Origin: Thermoplasmata archaeon
Lineage (GTDB): Archaea; Thermoplasmatota; Thermoplasmata; Lutacidiplasmatales; UBA184
DNA length: 57,444 nucleotides
Assembly: GCA_027365105.1 (NCBI GenBank)
Contig: DAHXNZ010000010.1
Coordinates: 1-57,444 of the forward strand
Direction: 5' to 3'
Position numbers and translations under genes: made by a program. Positions within the stretch are counted from its first letter, which is position 1, and the number at the start of each line of letters is the position of its first letter. Below the pieces are notes generated by a model. That model had not been told where the DNA came from. It did not search any database and was given only the letters and a program-made list of their open reading frames with translations. Below are positions 26,126 through 33,911 of this stretch, piece by piece.

Positions 26126-27085
26126 GTGGTCGATATCGGAGCGCAGGAGATCAACCTCCTCCAAGCGGTCGTCGTGCTGCTCGGCGCTCCGCTGTGGGCC
26201 GGCCTCTACGCGCGCGGCCGGGCCTGGACCGAGTCCCGTCGGGGGCCGCCCATCCTCCAGCCGTACTACGATCTCGCGAAGCTCCTCCGCAAGGAGACGC
26301 TGCTGCCCGAAGGGAGCTCGGCGTTCTTCGTGCTGGGCCCGTTCGTGGCCTTCGGGGCGTACCTGACGATCGCGGTCATCGTGCCGGTCGTCACCCCCTA
26401 CCCGCTCCCCTATGCCGGGCTCGCCGACCTGCTCGGGGGGGGCCTGTTGTTCGGGCTGGCGGCGATCGTCGCGTCGCTCGCCGCGCTCGACTCGGGGAGC
26501 AACTACGCGGCATTGGGCGCGAGCCGGGCGACTACCTTCGGAGCCTTCGGCGAGCCGGTGCTCATCATGGTCTTCTTTGCGGTGGCGGTGATCACCGGCA
26601 CCAACAATCCCTACGTGACCACCCAGCTCCTGGCCGGCTCGGCGGCGGCCTATCTTTCCCCGACCCACCTCCTGGCGACCGGCGCCTTCTTCCTGCTCCT
26701 CCTCGCCGAGATCGGGAAGCTCCCGATCGAGAGTCCGGGCCACCTGGAATTCGGGCTCATGGGGGAAGCCCAGGCCTTCGAGCACTCCGGCCGGCTGTTC
26801 GGCGTGATCCAGTGGAACGGCTGGCTCAAGCAGTTCCTGCTCGCCGCGATCTTCCTGAACGTCTTCGCGGCCCCGTGGGGCCTCGCCGCGGCCCCCACGC
26901 TCGTCGCCGCGCTCGCGAACACCGGTCTCCTCGCGGCCAAGCTCGCCGGCCTGGCCGGTCTCCTGATCCTGGTCGAGGCCTCGATCGCCAAGATCCGGCT
27001 CTTCAAGATCCAGGACTTCCTGGTGATCGCCTTCTCGCTGGGGCTCCTGTCGGTCGTGGCCTGGCTGTGGCTGGGGGTGGGCTGA
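26126..27085 (+). CDS. Ehr-like complex, NuoH/HyfC (HycD)-type membrane subunit
   Basis: Membrane subunit linking the redox arm to the ion-pumping arm in complex-I-like enzymes. About eight hydrophobic segments; signature text includes QPYYDLAKLLRKETLLPEGSS near residue 45, GSNYAALGASR, and LLAEIGKLPIESPG with EFGLMGEAQAFEHSG near residues 192-225, the charged loop equivalent to the quinone-site region of NuoH. At 319 residues the length is normal. GTG start at 26126; stop directly abuts the next gene. First of six tightly packed genes. Confidence 0.88.
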   Translation: MVDIGAQEINLLQAVVVLLGAPLWAGLYARGRAWTESRRGPPILQPYYDLAKLLRKETLLPEGSSAFFVLGPFVAFGAYLTIAVIVPVVTPYPLPYAGLADLLGGGLLFGLAAIVASLAALDSGSNYAALGASRATTFGAFGEPVLIMVFFAVAVITGTNNPYVTTQLLAGSAAAYLSPTHLLATGAFFLLLLAEIGKLPIESPGHLEFGLMGEAQAFEHSGRLFGVIQWNGWLKQFLLAAIFLNVFAAPWGLAAAPTLVAALANTGLLAAKLAGLAGLLILVEASIAKIRLFKIQDFLVIAFSLGLLSVVAWLWLGVG

Positions 27086-27736
27086 ATGGGCGTCGACCTC
27101 CTCCAGATCACCATCCTCCTGGGCATGGCGATGCTCGTCCTCGCGCTCTACCTCCAGGCCGAGTCGTTCATCGGCCCGCAGATCCAGGGGATCGCCCTCC
27201 AGTCGCTGCTGCTGGGGGGCCTCCTCGGCCTCCTGGCCGCGGAGGAGCATAGCCTGCCCCTCGCGGCCCTCGCCGGGCTGACGGTCGGGGTCCGGGCACT
27301 CCTCCTGCCGCACATCCTCGCCCGGCAGGCCGGGGCCTACCGGGTCCCGGAGCGGGAGCTTCGGGCCGGGCGACGGGTCCGGGGCCACGCCCTGGCGGCG
27401 GTCCTGGTGGCTGTCGCGGGCGGCGGGCTCTATCTCCAGGTCCTCGGGCCGGCCCTCGCCAGCCCGGACGGGGTGATCCCCTTCCTGCTCCTCCTGGAGG
27501 GGCTCCTCCTCCTGGCGACCCGGTCGAATCCCCTGGCCCGGGTGATCGCCTACTTGGAGGAGGAGAACGCCATCGTCCTGCTCGGCGCGCTGGTGGCCGC
27601 CGGCTTCCCGCTCCTCGTCGAGAGCGTGATCCTGCTCGACCTCTTCGGGGTCGTCCTGGTCGCCGGGATTCTGGCCCTCCATCGTACCGCGGCCGGGGTG
27701 CCCGAGGAGGGCTTCGTGGAGGAGTTGACCGGATGA
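27086..27736 (+). CDS. Ehr-like complex, HyfE-type (NuoK-related) membrane subunit
   Basis: A 216-residue, six- to seven-helix membrane protein resembling hydrogenase-4 component E, which contains a NuoK-like half. Membrane segments run through ILLGMAMLVLALYLQ, the GIALQSLLLGGLLGLLAAEEH segment with its acidic pair, VRALLLPHIL, and the C-terminal YLEEENAIVLLGALVAAG with three consecutive acids. The ENAIxLLG text is typical of HyfE/HyfK. It starts immediately after the previous stop and overlaps the next gene by 4 nt. Confidence 0.85.
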   Translation: MGVDLLQITILLGMAMLVLALYLQAESFIGPQIQGIALQSLLLGGLLGLLAAEEHSLPLAALAGLTVGVRALLLPHILARQAGAYRVPERELRAGRRVRGHALAAVLVAVAGGGLYLQVLGPALASPDGVIPFLLLLEGLLLLATRSNPLARVIAYLEEENAIVLLGALVAAGFPLLVESVILLDLFGVVLVAGILALHRTAAGVPEEGFVEELTG

Positions 27737-29160
27737 GCGGCCTGGGAGAGTGGCTCTGGCTGGCGGTCCTTGCCCTCCCGACCCTCGCGGCCCTTGGGGC
27801 GGCGGTCGTCCCGCCCCGGGCCGCCGAACGGCTCTCCCGGGGAGCGAGCCTCGGGACGGTCGCCGCCGCCCTGCTGCTCCTGGTCGGCCCGTCGCAGGGC
27901 TCGGCCGGTCCGCTCCTGGGCTGGGACGCGACGAGCGACCTCTTTGCGGTCCTGGTCGCCTCGATCTATGCGCTCTCGACCTGGTACTCCGCCCTGGACC
28001 TCGCGACGGTCCGGCCTTCGGTTCTCTCCCCTTCGGTCTACTACGCGCTGCTGAGCGGGTTCGCGGCGGCGATGCTGGGGACCCTCGCGGTGTCGAACCT
28101 GGCCCTCATGTGGATCGGCCTCGAAGCGACGACCATCGTGAGCGCGCTGCTCGTGATGTACGACCGGCGGCCCGCGAGCGTGGAGGCGGCCTGGCGGTAC
28201 ACCCTGATGGCTTCGGGGGGGCTGGCCGTCGGCCTCTTCGGGCTGGCCCTCCTCTACGGCCAGACCGGCAGCCTGGACGCCTTCGCTCTTGCCGCCCACC
28301 CGCCTCCCCTGACCGCGGCGCTCGCCCTCGTCGTGGCGCTCGCCCTGGTCGGCTTCGGCACCAAGGTCGGCCTGTTCCCGATGCACGCGTGGCTCCCGGA
28401 CGCCCACTCGGAAGCGCCGGCCCCGGTCTCGGCCCTCTTCTCCGGGGTGCTGCTCCCGACCGCGCTCTACGTCTTCCTCCGGATCTTCCAGCTGCTCCCG
28501 CCGACCGGGGCCCTGGGCCTCCGGGAGCTGGTGGTCTTCGTCGGGGCCCTGACGGCGCTGGTGGCGGCATTCCTCACCCTCGCCCAGCGGTCGTACAAGC
28601 GGCTCTTCGCCTACTCGAGCATGGAGAACATGGGGATCGCCCTGGTGGGGATTGGCCTCGGGGGGATCGCACTCTACGGGGCGATCCTCCTCCTGATCGC
28701 CCATGCCTTCGCGAAGTCGTCGGCGTTCTACTGCTCCGGGACCGTCCTTCGGACGACCGGGACCTCCCGGATCGACGAGGTGCGGGGGGTCGGCCGGCGC
28801 CTTCCGAGGACCGGGCCGCTCTGGATCCTCTCGGGCCTCGCCGTCGCGGGCGCGCCGCCGTTCGGCAGCTTCGCGGCGGAGCTCGTGATCCTCACCGGGG
28901 CGTTCGCCCAGGGGTCGTTCGGAGTGGCGGCCGCCCTGGTCCTGGCGCTGGGGGTCGCGTTCGCCGGGATCAACTATCCCCTCGGCCGGATGGTCTTGTC
29001 CCGACCGGAGGGCCCCGAGCCCGGGCCGGCGGGGCCCGAGAGCTGGCTCGCCACGATCGTGCCGGGGCTCGCGCTGGGCGTGGCCCTGGCCGTCGGGCTG
29101 GGATCGATACCCTACCTGACCGACGCCCTTCGGATCGCCACCGGCGGAGCCTTCCCATGA
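27733..29160 (+). CDS. Ehr-like complex, HyfF/NuoN-type antiporter-like subunit
   Basis: A 475-residue Mrp-antiporter-like subunit, one of the proton or sodium channels of the complex. It has about 14 membrane helices; the family core is intact: MWIGLEATTIVSALLVMY (helix-5 glutamate), WRYTLMASGGLAVGL, and TKVGLFPMHAWLPDAHSEAPAPVSALFSG with the pumping Lys and His pair, then AHAFAKSSAFYCSG. This suggests a working ion channel. Overlaps neighbours by 4 nt on both sides. Confidence 0.88.
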   Translation: MSGLGEWLWLAVLALPTLAALGAAVVPPRAAERLSRGASLGTVAAALLLLVGPSQGSAGPLLGWDATSDLFAVLVASIYALSTWYSALDLATVRPSVLSPSVYYALLSGFAAAMLGTLAVSNLALMWIGLEATTIVSALLVMYDRRPASVEAAWRYTLMASGGLAVGLFGLALLYGQTGSLDAFALAAHPPPLTAALALVVALALVGFGTKVGLFPMHAWLPDAHSEAPAPVSALFSGVLLPTALYVFLRIFQLLPPTGALGLRELVVFVGALTALVAAFLTLAQRSYKRLFAYSSMENMGIALVGIGLGGIALYGAILLLIAHAFAKSSAFYCSGTVLRTTGTSRIDEVRGVGRRLPRTGPLWILSGLAVAGAPPFGSFAAELVILTGAFAQGSFGVAAALVLALGVAFAGINYPLGRMVLSRPEGPEPGPAGPESWLATIVPGLALGVALAVGLGSIPYLTDALRIATGGAFP

Positions 29161-30446
29161 CCGGCCCGATTCCTTGGACGCGGTGCGCCGGGCAGCCGCC
29201 CTCGAGCGACGCCCGGTGGATCTCCTACCTCACAGCGGACCGTCGCCTCGCGCTCGTGAGCGATCTGACCCGACCCGCGAGCTTTGTGGTCGAGGCGCCG
29301 ACCGACGAGTTCCTGGGCCGGCCGACGGCGTCCGCCGACGGCGCCTCCCCCCGGGACCCGCGGCCCCCGGGCACGCTGAGCTTCCCCTACGGCCCGGTGA
29401 CCTTCGGACTCGTCGAGGCCGGCCGGATCGACCTCGAGACCCCGGGCGAAAAGGTCGTCTCGGCGGTCCCGCGGACCGGCTACAAGCACCGGCAGATCGA
29501 CCGCTCGGTCATCGGCCGGACCCCCCGGGACGCTCTGCCCTGGATCGAGCGCCGGGTCGGGCCGTTTTCCATTGCGCACGGGGCGACCTTCCTCGCGGCG
29601 GCCGAATCGGCCGCGGGGGCGCCGGTCCTTGAGCGGGAGCTCTGGCTCCGGGCCCTCGGCGCCGAGCTCCAACGGATCCATGTCCACCTCGGGCTGATCG
29701 GTCGGAGCCTGGAGGCCGCCGCCCAGCCGGTCGGGACGGCCCAGATCGCCGCCCTCGCGGAGGAGATCCGCCGGTCGATGGGCCGTTGGGGGGGTCACCG
29801 CTGGCTCTTCGGGCTGTTGGACCCGGGCTATCCGTGGCGACGGCTCGACCGCCCGGATCTCCGTCGCCTGGCCGGGGACGTGGCCGGGATCCGCCGACGG
29901 TTCGACCGCCTCTGGGAGCTTGCCCGGGGCACCCGGATCTACATCGACCGGCTCCAGGCGACCGCGGTCCTGCCCCGGGCCTGCGCCCTGGCGCTCGGCG
30001 CGACCGGGCCGGTGGCCCGCGCGAGCGGGATCGGCTGGGACGACCGGTCGGCCGATCCGGTTCCGCCCTACGATCAACTCGAGGTGCCGCCCCGGGTCGA
30101 ATCCGAAGGGGATGCCCTGGCCCGGATCCTGGTCCGGGTCGCGGAGATCCGGCAGAGCGCCGAGCTCATCGAGCAGATCGTCGACCGCTGGCCGGGCGAA
30201 CTTCGCGAGGTGGATCCCCGGCCCGGGGTCGCTCCCGGCCGCGGCTGGGCCCGGTCGGAGAGCCCGGCCGGTGATCTCGTGTACGATGTGACGCTCACGG
30301 AGGGCCGGATCGGCGCCCTCGGGGTGCGGACCGCCAGCGCGGCGAACTGGCCGGCCTTCGCCCGCGCGCTCGAGGGCTCGGTCTTCACCGACTTCCACTT
30401 CGCATGGGAGAGCTTCGGGCTCTCCTTCGCCGAGACCGATGGGTAG
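29157..30446 (+). CDS. Ehr-like complex, large subunit homologous to NuoD/HycE but without nickel-binding cysteines
   Basis: A 429-residue relative of [NiFe]-hydrogenase large subunits and complex I NuoD. Alignable landmarks are FPYGPVTFGLVEAGRIDL, the GYKHRQIDRS segment and ERRVGPFSIAHG (residues 131-142), which stands where hydrogenases have ERxCGxCxxxH. The C terminus TDFHFAWESFGLSF stands where the second CxxC would be. The only two cysteines in the protein are isolated (residue 10 and about 276), so no Ni-Fe site can form. An N-terminal NuoC-like portion is very short. Overlaps the previous gene by ATGA and the next by 8 nt. Confidence 0.85.
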   Translation: MTGPIPWTRCAGQPPSSDARWISYLTADRRLALVSDLTRPASFVVEAPTDEFLGRPTASADGASPRDPRPPGTLSFPYGPVTFGLVEAGRIDLETPGEKVVSAVPRTGYKHRQIDRSVIGRTPRDALPWIERRVGPFSIAHGATFLAAAESAAGAPVLERELWLRALGAELQRIHVHLGLIGRSLEAAAQPVGTAQIAALAEEIRRSMGRWGGHRWLFGLLDPGYPWRRLDRPDLRRLAGDVAGIRRRFDRLWELARGTRIYIDRLQATAVLPRACALALGATGPVARASGIGWDDRSADPVPPYDQLEVPPRVESEGDALARILVRVAEIRQSAELIEQIVDRWPGELREVDPRPGVAPGRGWARSESPAGDLVYDVTLTEGRIGALGVRTASAANWPAFARALEGSVFTDFHFAWESFGLSFAETDG

Positions 30447-31200
30447 GCCGATGACGGGATGGATTGTTCAGGCGGTTCGGCGCGGGCGGCTGACGACCCG
30501 GTTCCCCCGGGCCCCCCCGGGCGAGGAGGAGCTGCCTCCGACCGCCCGGCTTCCCGTCCTCGCGCCGCTGCCCCCGACGGAGGCCCAGCGCCGGGCCGCC
30601 CGCTGCCCGACCGAGGCGATCGAGGGCACCCGGGTCGACGAAGGGCGGTGCCTCCGATGCGCGCGATGCCTGCCGGGCGAGGCGGTTGCGGACGGACCGT
30701 GGGACCACCTGGTGCCCGGCCCGGGGTCGCCCTCCGCGCCGGGCGGGGATCCGGAGGCGGAGCGATCGACGTCGATCTTTGCCGCCCCGTTCCTGAGGTC
30801 GATCCATGTCTTCCCGATCGACGTCGGGAGCTGCCAGGCGTGCAATCTGGAAGTCCTCGCCCTGGCCAACCCGTACTACGACGCCTCCCGGCTCGGCATC
30901 TTCTTCACCCCCACGCCGCGGCACGCCGATCTGCTCCTCGTGATGGGGGTCCCGACCGCCGCGATGGAGGAGCCGGTGCGTCGGACCCTCGAGGCGATGC
31001 CCTCCCCGAAGGCGATCGTCGCGGTCGGAGCGTGCGCGGTGAGTGGCGGCCTCTTCCGCTCGCTCCCCGGCCGAGGCTCGGTCGGTTCGGCCGGAGTGCC
31101 GGTCGTCTACCTCCCCGGTTGCCCTCCGAGCCCGATCCAGATCCTCGCCGCGATCCGTCGGGCGGTCGGAGTGCCCCGGGCCGCCGGGGAGCGCCCATGA
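30439..31200 (+). CDS. Ehr-like complex, small subunit (NuoB/HycG-like) fused to a degenerate ferredoxin module
   Basis: Residues about 125-245 are a NuoB-type domain with the proximal cluster ligands in SCQACN (Cys132, Cys135), VGACAVSGG (Cys199) and LPGCPPSP (Cys228). Ahead of it residues about 55-80 are a ferredoxin-like piece: RCPTEAI (Cys56) and CLRCARC (Cys71, 74, 77). In a two-cluster ferredoxin these four would bind one [4Fe-4S] cluster, while the ligands for the other are missing. So the protein probably carries two [4Fe-4S] clusters. The start may be ATG 30439 or ATG 30451. ATGA overlap with the next gene. Confidence 0.85.
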   Translation: MGRPMTGWIVQAVRRGRLTTRFPRAPPGEEELPPTARLPVLAPLPPTEAQRRAARCPTEAIEGTRVDEGRCLRCARCLPGEAVADGPWDHLVPGPGSPSAPGGDPEAERSTSIFAAPFLRSIHVFPIDVGSCQACNLEVLALANPYYDASRLGIFFTPTPRHADLLLVMGVPTAAMEEPVRRTLEAMPSPKAIVAVGACAVSGGLFRSLPGRGSVGSAGVPVVYLPGCPPSPIQILAAIRRAVGVPRAAGERP

Positions 31201-33185
31201 TCGGGACCGGCCCCTGGGCCCTGGGCGCGGGGCTCATCCTCACCGCCGGGGCGGCCCTCCTGGGACGGGCCGACCGGAGGCTCGCCTACGCGGCGCTCGG
31301 CGCCGGGGCCGCGGCGTTCGTGGTCGCCGGGCTGATCGCGGGATGGACCGGGGGCTTCGACCTGGGCCAATGGACCGGTCCGCTGGGGGAGGCCGAGTTC
31401 CTCCGGGTCGACCTCCTCTCGGCGTACTTCCTGATCGTGGTCGGGATCGTGGGGGTGGCCGTCGCCGTCTTTGCCTACGGCTACGATCGGGGGACCGGCC
31501 CGGGGCTCCCGCTCGGAACCTCGGTCCTCCTCTTCGGGATTGCGTGGGTCATCGTGGCGCCCACCTCCCTCCTCTTCCTGGTCGGATGGGAGATCATGAC
31601 CCTCGGCGCGTTCGTGGGTCTCCTCGACGGCGCCGGTCCCCGGGACCGGGTCGTTCCCGCCGCGTACACCTTCCTGATCCTGGGGGAGGGGAGCGCGCTG
31701 GCCTGGGCCATCGCCTGGGGGGCCCTCCGGGTCGCCCGAGGCGACTGGCTCCTGGCCGGAGGGCCGATCCCGGCCGAATGGGCCGGGGTCATCTTCGTCG
31801 CCGGGGCGGTCGCCGCGACGGTCAAGATGGGGGTCGTGCCGTTCCAGATCGGCGAGTGGCTGCCGTTGGTGCGGGGGTCGGCCCCGCCGACCGTGGCGGC
31901 CCTGGTCAGCGCCGGGGTCACGGTGGTCGGGGCCTACGGCCTGATCCGGCTCATTTCCCTGCTCGGGACCGGGCCGGCCTGGTGGGGCGGCCTGCTCCTC
32001 GTCGTCGGGAGCGCCTCGGTGATCGCCGGTGCCCTGTGGGCGAGCGTGAGCGACCACCCGCAGGGCCTGCTCGCCTACAGCACGATCGAAAACAACGGTC
32101 TCATCCTGGTCGCCCTGGGCGGTTCCCTCATCGCCTCGGCGTTCGGGTTCTCGGCCCTCGCGGCGCTCGCGCTGCTCGCCGCACTCTTTCAGGTCGGGGC
32201 CCACGCTGCGGCGAAGTCGGGGCTCTTCCTCTTTGCGGGGCACATCGCCCGGAGCTCGGAGTCGCCGGCGCTCGACAGCGACCGGTTCCCGAGACCCCGT
32301 TCCGGAGGGCCGGTCTGGGGGGTCTACCTGGCCGGCCTGAGCCTCGCCGCAGCGCCGCCAATGGCGGGGTTCGTCGGGGAGTGGCTGATTCTCGAGGCCC
32401 TCTTCCAGTCGTACCGTTTCCCGTCGCTCGCCTACCAGCTTCTCGGGCTGGGGGCCGGAGCGCTGCTCGCCCTCGCGGCGGGCCTCATGGTCGTCGCGAT
32501 GACCAAGTTCGTCGGCTACGGGGGGCTCTGGCGGACCCGGGCCGGCGCGGGCCGCCCCCCCGCCGTTCCGATGGGCGCGGCGATCCTCGGGATGGCGGCC
32601 CTCACCGCGGGCCTCGGGATCGCCGCCCCCGGGCTTCTCACCGTGCTCGCGCCGGTCGCCAGCGCCGTGGCCGGGCGGCCGGTCGTGGCCCCGCTCGCCA
32701 GCCTCCTCGGACTCCCGGGGGGTTGGACGATCGTCTCGGGCGCCCCGTTCGGCGCGTTCACCCCGACCGCGATCCCGATCGCCCTGGCGATCGGGGCCCT
32801 CGTGGCCGCGGGGTACGCGGCGCTGGGCGGGCCGGCCCGGATCCGCCGCGCTCCGGTCTGGATGTCGGGCAGCCGACCGGACCTGCCCGAAGAGGCCTAC
32901 GGATCGGTGGCCTTCTCGACCGGGCTCCGAACGATGCTCAAGGAGCTCCTGCCCACGGCGGCGATCGTCGGCTTTGACGACGCCCCGGATCCGCGCGAGC
33001 ATCCGGTCCACCGGGAGGCCATCGACCCGTTCGAACGGGGGTATGCGTCGGTGGCCGGCGCGATCCGGCGGCTCGGTCAGGCGGTCTCCGTCCGGCTCAT
33101 GGTGGGCCGCCTTGACCGCTATGTGGCCTACCTCCTGATTGCCGTCCTCGCGGCCGTCGCCTACATCGGGGTCGTCTACCACTGA
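31197..33185 (+). CDS. Ehr-like complex, HyfB/NuoL-type antiporter-like subunit
   Basis: A 662-residue antiporter-like membrane protein with about 15 helices; last gene of the cluster. Landmarks are LVGWEIMTLGAFVGLL (helix-5 glutamate) and VKMGVVPFQIGEWLPLVRGSAPPTVAALVSAG. The second corresponds to the PxHxWLPxAHxxAPxPVSALLSG motif of relatives, but both His residues are replaced (Gln and Val/Arg). STIENNG and AAKSGLFLFAGH match later helices. The C-terminal 90 residues (RLDRYVAYLLIAVL) resemble the HyfB tail. Start ATG 31197 overlaps the small-subunit stop (ATGA). Confidence 0.85.
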   Translation: MIGTGPWALGAGLILTAGAALLGRADRRLAYAALGAGAAAFVVAGLIAGWTGGFDLGQWTGPLGEAEFLRVDLLSAYFLIVVGIVGVAVAVFAYGYDRGTGPGLPLGTSVLLFGIAWVIVAPTSLLFLVGWEIMTLGAFVGLLDGAGPRDRVVPAAYTFLILGEGSALAWAIAWGALRVARGDWLLAGGPIPAEWAGVIFVAGAVAATVKMGVVPFQIGEWLPLVRGSAPPTVAALVSAGVTVVGAYGLIRLISLLGTGPAWWGGLLLVVGSASVIAGALWASVSDHPQGLLAYSTIENNGLILVALGGSLIASAFGFSALAALALLAALFQVGAHAAAKSGLFLFAGHIARSSESPALDSDRFPRPRSGGPVWGVYLAGLSLAAAPPMAGFVGEWLILEALFQSYRFPSLAYQLLGLGAGALLALAAGLMVVAMTKFVGYGGLWRTRAGAGRPPAVPMGAAILGMAALTAGLGIAAPGLLTVLAPVASAVAGRPVVAPLASLLGLPGGWTIVSGAPFGAFTPTAIPIALAIGALVAAGYAALGGPARIRRAPVWMSGSRPDLPEEAYGSVAFSTGLRTMLKELLPTAAIVGFDDAPDPREHPVHREAIDPFERGYASVAGAIRRLGQAVSVRLMVGRLDRYVAYLLIAVLAAVAYIGVVYH

Positions 33186-33243
33186 GGCCGGGACCCGCGG
33201 AGCGCGAACCCTCATGAGGCGGGGGACGAAGGGCCCGGCGCGG

Positions 33244-33911
33244 ATGTCGGAAGACGAAAGGGGGGCCGAAGGAGGACGGCCCGACTGGCTCCGGCACCAC
33301 GGTGACGACCTGAGCCGGCTCCTCTCCCTGAGCGACGGGGTCTTCGCCTTCGCCTTCACCCTCCTCGTCCTCCAGCTGACGGTGCCGGTGATCGACACCT
33401 CGGGCCTCTCGGACGGGCAGATCTCCCAGCGGCTCGCCGGGGCCCTCGGAGGAGAGGTGCCGGCGATCCTCGCCTTTGCGCTCGGGACGATCTTCATCGG
33501 TCTCCAGTGGGTGGTCCACCATCGCACCTTCCGCGACATCCGACGCTACGACCCGATCCTCCTCTGGCTCAACCTTGGGTTCCTCGCGACCGTCGCGATC
33601 AATCCGTTTCTCCTCGGAGTCTTCATCCGGTACCCGACGACCTCGGCCGCCGTGATGCTCTATGGGGGGGCCAGGCGGTCACCGTCGGACTGCTCGCGCT
33701 CATCTGGTGGTATGCGACCTGGGATCGGCGCCGCGTCGACGCGTCGCTGGGCTCCCGCCTGATCGACTACTACCGCTACCGGGGGCGGCTCTTCCCGGTC
33801 GCCTTCACGATCTCGGTAGGGGTGGCCTACTACTCGGCCACGTTCGGGGAGGTGAGCTGGCTCGCCGGAGTCGTCGCCGGCGGCTGGCTCTCCCGGCGCT
33901 ACCGGTCCTGA
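33244..33911 (+). pseudogene. TMEM175-like potassium channel (DUF1211) with a frameshift at a G7 tract
   Basis: The first frame (33244 to about 33665) encodes LLSLSDGVFAFAFTLLVLQLTVP, the FSDG signature of the TMEM175 family, then LQWVVHHRTFRDIRRYDPILLWLNLGFLATVAINPF. After the run of seven G at 33664-33670 that frame becomes meaningless, while the next frame continues sensibly with QAVTVGLLALIWWYATW and a final pair of membrane segments, ending at 33911. Adding one G restores one protein of about 220 residues. It may be a true mutation, a sequencing/assembly error in a homopolymer, or slippage. Its 3' end overlaps the convergent zinc-ribbon gene by 13 nt. Confidence 0.75.

Follow-up and report, generated by a model that had tools for sequence, protein, structure and literature searches.

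The window, a 57,444-nucleotide stretch of DNA from a Thermoplasmata archaeon, carries a six-gene operon whose hydrogenase-like large subunit has lost all of its nickel ligands. Judging from the sequences, we consider that the operon probably encodes a six-subunit energy-converting hydrogenase-related (Ehr) complex of a form named here type A, which derives from a group 4a hydrogenase minus its nickel site and acts as an ion-pumping ferredoxin oxidoreductase. Ehr complexes are reportedly the subject of work by Coppi in 2005 and by Marreiros et al. in 2013. Two gene arrangements emerged from a phylum-wide search and 40 gene neighbourhoods, with type A having the order hyfC-E-F-L-S-B, as in the window, and type B the order hyfB-C-E-F-L-S.

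The operon, its lost nickel motifs and its cluster sites

The six genes were located on the forward strand (+) with starts at 26126, 27086, 27733, 29157, 30439, and 31197, and neighbouring genes adjoined or shared 4-8 bp. The first gene (26126..27085, +) encodes a HyfC/NuoH-like membrane anchor of 319 aa (PF00146, 1.3e-30), whose loop and channel acids E143, E195, E202, E214, and E219 are common to E. coli HyfC/HycD. It is followed by a HyfE-like membrane subunit of 216 aa (27086..27736, +), assigned by its operon position and by a match to NF008556 (hydrogenase 4 membrane subunit) that lies under the curated cut-off (5.1e-7), and by a HyfF-like antiporter-type subunit of 475 aa (27733..29160, +; PF00361, 6.4e-54; NF005042, hydrogenase 4 subunit F, 3.6e-107) with 4-bp overlaps with its neighbours. 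The last gene (31197..33185, +) encodes a HyfB-like antiporter-type subunit of 662 aa (NF005046, hydrogenase 4 subunit B, 2.1e-84). Ion-path residues were kept in both HyfF (E131, K211, H324, K328, and E383) and HyfB (E132, K210, H336, K340, and K437). The first-pass annotation had counted three antiporter-type subunits, whereas the profiles gave two, HyfB and HyfF, together with HyfE and the NuoH-like HyfC. Compared with the nearest relative, dN/dS was 0.10-0.33 across the six genes, indicating purifying selection. A TMEM175-type potassium channel gene located 3' of the operon (33139-33911) was apparently split, with a frame change at a seven-G run near 33664-33670.

The large subunit, encoded by gene four (29157..30446, +), was read from one open frame of 429 aa with two cysteines in total. 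It matched PF00346 (2.5e-28) and no NuoC domain, and among solved sequences it was a PF00346 member closest to Mbh alpha. Its AlphaFold2 model was confident (pLDDT 89.7), and the top TM-score among the 50 matches listed was 0.83, to E. coli HycE (7z0s_E). In the alignment with true group 4 hydrogenases, the segment ERRVGPFSIAHG (29547..29582, +; residues 131-142) occupied the place of their N-terminal RxCGxC, with V134 at the first ligand position (C1) and F137 at the second (C2). The former C-terminal motif and the protein end were aligned as TDFHFAWESFGLSFAETDG (30387..30443, +; residues 411-429). Here the multi-sequence alignment placed S423 at C3 and E426 at C4, an ungapped register placed G421 and F424 there instead, and the cysteines were missing under both registers. 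The claim of the first-pass annotation that this two-cysteine protein had lost every nickel ligand was therefore borne out at V134, F137, S423, and E426. Group 4 [NiFe] hydrogenases are recognised by four Cys ligands in RxCGxC and DPCxxC, a pattern that the window protein does not have.

The loss extended to the other type-A proteins. Cysteine was counted at C1 in 1/23 type-A large subunits of the joint alignment and at C2 and C4 in 0/23 each; a CxxC pair at the N- or C-terminal end was present in 0/23, and C3 and C4 were non-Cys throughout the type-A C-termini that were compared separately. As controls, all four cysteines were found in 17/17 true group 4 hydrogenases of the same alignment, which came from the same class, the same phylum, and E. 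coli/Azospirillum. The alignments indicate that the cysteine loss is neither chance nor a sequencing error.

The residues in place of the nickel site were themselves retained. Position 418 was E in 20/23 and D in 3/23 type-A large subunits, position 426 was E in 19/23 and D in 4/23, and K110, R112, and H214 were each present in 23/23. The type-B pocket consisted of S134-G-D136, K418, and Y424. These counts were taken from the 23-protein alignment; the locus-scan set was biased at residues 410-418, which belonged to the scan motif, and was therefore set aside. Across the aligned proteins the replacement residues are conserved in a branch-specific manner and are not drifting. The complex I quinone residues were also replaced in the joint alignment, His by T82 and the residue at the Tyr position by G135.

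The small subunit (30439..31200, +; 253 aa) was NuoB-like by profile (PF01058, 8.2e-25) and by the small-subunit tree, and its nearest match was formate hydrogenlyase subunit 7. It carries a ferredoxin remnant (30601..30684, +), CPTEAI followed by CLRCARC, whose four cysteines should suffice for one [4Fe-4S] cluster. The remnant was kept in most type-A small subunits, with a variant in an A. boonei-like family. A proximal (N2-type) [4Fe-4S] site (30832..31158, +) is formed by GSCQAC, GAC, and PGCPP with the CxxC spacing of hydrogenases, as opposed to CC in the NuoB of the same genome, and this motif was complete in each small subunit recovered from the 62 named type-A loci. The window proteins thus have neither the adjacent CC of complex I, with CQAC in its place, nor the quinone His and Tyr.

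Phylogeny, spread and genomic setting of type A

The large-subunit tree was built on 72 rows, with bacterial Ehr represented by seven plasmid-borne sequences, a set that does not include the Geobacter founding sequences. Type A was monophyletic (100/100), and type A, type B, and bacterial Ehr formed a single clade (100/100), which upheld the earlier assignment to an Ehr-type complex. The window shows the features of Ehr, namely loss of both CxxC motifs, Hyf B/C/E/F genes with NuoD- and NuoB-like genes, and monophyly of the large subunit. Group 4a formate hydrogenlyase/hydrogenase-4 was sister to the Ehr clade (99/94); Mbh, Mbs, Nuo, and the other hydrogenases fell outside this pair, and the same result was obtained without the bacterial rows. 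The small-subunit tree, which had few columns, recovered type A (100/99) apart from Nuo and left the deeper order unresolved. Since Ehr lies inside the hydrogenases, placing the root on Nuo means that the nickel site was lost secondarily, and once. The first-pass description of the complex as intermediate between complex I and the group 4 hydrogenases is not supported, since its sister group is 4a and, seen from Nuo and Mbs, it falls within the hydrogenases. For the type-A branch, the missing-link picture is corrected by the direction of the loss, which started from a 4a hydrogenase and did not lead towards complex I. Placement within a clade of proven hydrogenases had been named beforehand as evidence against an Ehr-type complex, and the large subunit was only sister to such a clade. 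Two NuoD-like proteins from Aciduliprofundum-like genomes (L154 and L157) grouped with Pyrococcus Mbs (100/100), not with archaeal Nuo, and belong to candidate sulfur reductase complexes in Thermoplasmata.

A scan of named genomes identified 62 further type-A loci, nearly all in Thermoplasmata bins, with two in bins labelled Micrarchaeota, and complete type-A loci had one gene order without exception. Type A also appears to be present in cultured relatives, which we take to be Thermoplasma volcanium, Ferroplasma acidiphilum, Cuniculiplasma, and Aciduliprofundum. On bacterial plasmids, six-gene operons (Paraburkholderia, Rhizobium, Methylovirgula, Allomeiothermus, and others) had lost the same motifs, and their order was that of type B except in Rhodococcus, where the small subunit came first. 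By these comparisons type A is a separate Ehr branch in which the gene order is fixed, the NuoC domain is missing, and the small subunit carries a half-ferredoxin; the missing quinone His/Tyr and an invariant acid at the fourth-Cys position are further marks of it in the aligned sequences.

Several single loci were recorded in the course of the survey. The type-A operons in the two bins labelled Candidatus Micrarchaeota (L116 and L139) were 67% alike mutually and about 50% alike to a Thermoplasmatales copy, owing either to gene transfer or to misbinned contigs. One archaeal type-B small subunit (L055:10419-10940) had lost all proximal [4Fe-4S] ligands (SDNST, GDDAC, and PGNPP) and also had no ferredoxin part, giving a complex-I-like module that is apparently cluster-free. 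The proximal cysteines were likewise lost (GNTGLDD, GNEAIGG, and PGSPARP) from the bacterial Ehr small subunit on the Allomeiothermus silvanus plasmid pMESIL01 (L178:10275-11147), possibly independently of the archaeal case.

Three complexes of the superfamily were found in the genome, an archaeal-type Nuo (contig C33), a second Ehr (contig C179), and the window operon. The second Ehr operon (L009:225-7920), also Cys-free, had the order hyfB-C-E-F-L-S; its large subunit is a fusion with NuoC, and its small subunit is a fusion with a ferredoxin of eight cysteines. When a Ni-binding large subunit was sought elsewhere in the genome, PF00374 matched NuoD only, and PF00346 matched only Nuo, the second Ehr, and the window protein. 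A second, cysteine-bearing large subunit, which had also been named beforehand as contrary evidence, was thus found neither in the operon nor genome-wide by these two profiles. HypD was absent from the 97.5% complete assembly, so that the genome is without a gene needed for Ni-Fe cofactor synthesis, and no type-A-carrying genome of class f6 was among the HypD-positive matches listed. The operon has no maturation protease gene, and beside 29 type-A loci there was no conserved donor, acceptor, or partner dehydrogenase gene beyond the six. A haem-copper oxidase and two 2-oxoacid:ferredoxin oxidoreductase genes were present in the same genome, which makes it likely that the cell has an aerobic respiratory chain as well as a source of ferredoxin.

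Proposed mechanism and competing explanations

The conserved pocket, the intact ion path, and purifying selection together speak for a functional complex whose site has been rebuilt, and not for a relic. The donor of electrons would be soluble and of low potential, most likely ferredoxin reduced by the 2-oxoacid:ferredoxin oxidoreductases, and the electrons would pass from the small ferredoxin cluster through the proximal cluster to an acceptor in the former Ni-Fe chamber. This transfer would drive proton or sodium translocation via HyfC/E/F/B, and a reverse mode, in which the pmf drives the production of reduced ferredoxin, may also operate. The weakest step is the acceptor. Our tentative first guess is a quinone, or some other hydrophobic carrier, with a new mode of binding, and the quinone guess is weakened by T82 and G135 in place of His and Tyr. 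Two observations count against an ion-pumping ferredoxin oxidoreductase: no partner gene is conserved near the operon, and the archaeal-type Nuo and second Ehr of the same genome put the need for type A in question. A more far-reaching proposal, which we regard as doubtful, is that type A constitutes an energy-converting enzyme of its own, with the former nickel chamber rebuilt as a new active site (the acids at 418 and 426, K110, and H214) for an acceptor used by no characterised relative of complex I. The two differently rebuilt pockets, acids in type A and Lys/Tyr in type B, offer concrete residues to mutate. Ehr complexes, ion pumps within the superfamily of complex I, are widespread and have no known substrate, and the apparent cultured carriers make their function testable.

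It is conceivable, though unlikely, that no redox role is left and that the complex is a Mrp-like ion translocator or antiporter with a structural or regulatory peripheral arm. Such a role would be consistent with the charged residues kept in the membrane arm, with two wider-Ehr relatives (archaeal L055 and the A. silvanus plasmid L178) that are without even the proximal-cluster Cys, and with the remaining bacterial Ehr small subunits, which at about 170-180 aa have no ferredoxin part. However, the full proximal motif was present in all examined type-A small subunits and the ferredoxin remnant in nearly all, and clusters kept in this way are hard to account for without electron transfer. A decaying operon seems very improbable, as six intact overlapping frames, dN/dS of 0.10-0.33, a fixed order, and conserved replacement residues stand against its patchy occurrence within the genus, where several sister genomes gave no match, which would suggest a relic.

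Reduction of sulfane sulfur (polysulfide) at the proximal cluster, as in Pyrococcus MBS, is a quite improbable role for type A. MBS is likewise without the quinone His/Tyr and part of the Ni ligands, but its chemistry requires a three-Cys proximal cluster formed by a motif three residues shorter (PMC7684303). Because type A has the full hydrogenase-like CxxC motif, MBS-type sulfur chemistry is disfavoured, and Mbs was far from Ehr in the large-subunit trees, even though sulfur-rich, acidic habitats are likely. T. acidophilum and T. volcanium are both sulfur respirers, yet the T. acidophilum-like genome gave a Nuo-level match only whereas the T. volcanium-like genome carried type A. The group 4a sister, a fold near that of HycE, and acids at former Cys positions could be taken to mean that the protein is still a hydrogenase with its metal held by other residues. 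With Cys at 0/4 positions in the window protein, HypD absent, and an operon without a maturation protease, we give this explanation almost no weight.

Comparison with known systems

Ehr complexes without Ni ligands have been reported in Sulfobacillus (PMC4378227), Margulisbacteria (PMC6349859), and Nitrospira (PMC10284858), and an ehr complex in Methanomassiliicoccales (PMC6147122). Coupling of ion translocation to a redox reaction in the cytoplasm has been proposed (PMC6349859), the function has been called unknown (PMC10284858), and a demonstration of redox-ion coupling was found in neither of these two papers. In the accessible parts of two further studies, putative group 4 hydrogenases without both Ni-binding motifs were described in 2013 from acid mine drainage Thermoplasmatales (PMC3750248), and an antiporter/hydrogenase cluster, FAD_0579-0584, from Ferroplasma acidiphilum (PMC5473848). 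Both are very probably type-A orthologues, because a genome of the class that we take to be F. acidiphilum-like had a type-A-level match. The same parts of these two studies hold no subfamily definition, gene-order comparison, or pocket analysis, and neither the definition of type A nor its pocket residues were found in the accessible parts of the papers cited here by PMC number. The family is already known, and what is added here is the definition of the branch and its pocket residues.

Like other Ehr, the window has a HyfB/C/E/F-type membrane arm, a NuoB-like small subunit, and a NuoD-like large subunit with both Ni motifs lost. It differs from them in gene order (hyfC-E-F-L-S-B versus hyfB-C-E-F-L-S), in a large subunit without a NuoC domain, in the half-ferredoxin of the small subunit, and in the pocket, which is E418/E426 in the window and K418/Y424/G426 in theirs. 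Group 4a (E. coli HycE/HycG and hydrogenase-4) shares the subunit set, the fold (TM 0.83), and the proximal CxxC spacing, but has Ni ligands, a NuoC domain, HycB/HycF-type ferredoxins, and maturation genes that the window does not. The MBS of Pyrococcus furiosus, likewise an ion pump of the superfamily, is ferredoxin-fed and does not have the quinone His/Tyr of complex I. It is distant in the tree, keeps two of the four Cys, and has a three-Cys proximal cluster (PMC7684303), whereas the window has four potential ligands; the window proteins show neither a three-Cys cluster from a shortened motif nor a place in the MbsL clade. The archaeal Nuo of the same genome has homologous core subunits, but its NuoB carries the adjacent CC, its NuoD keeps both His and Tyr, and it forms a separate clade.
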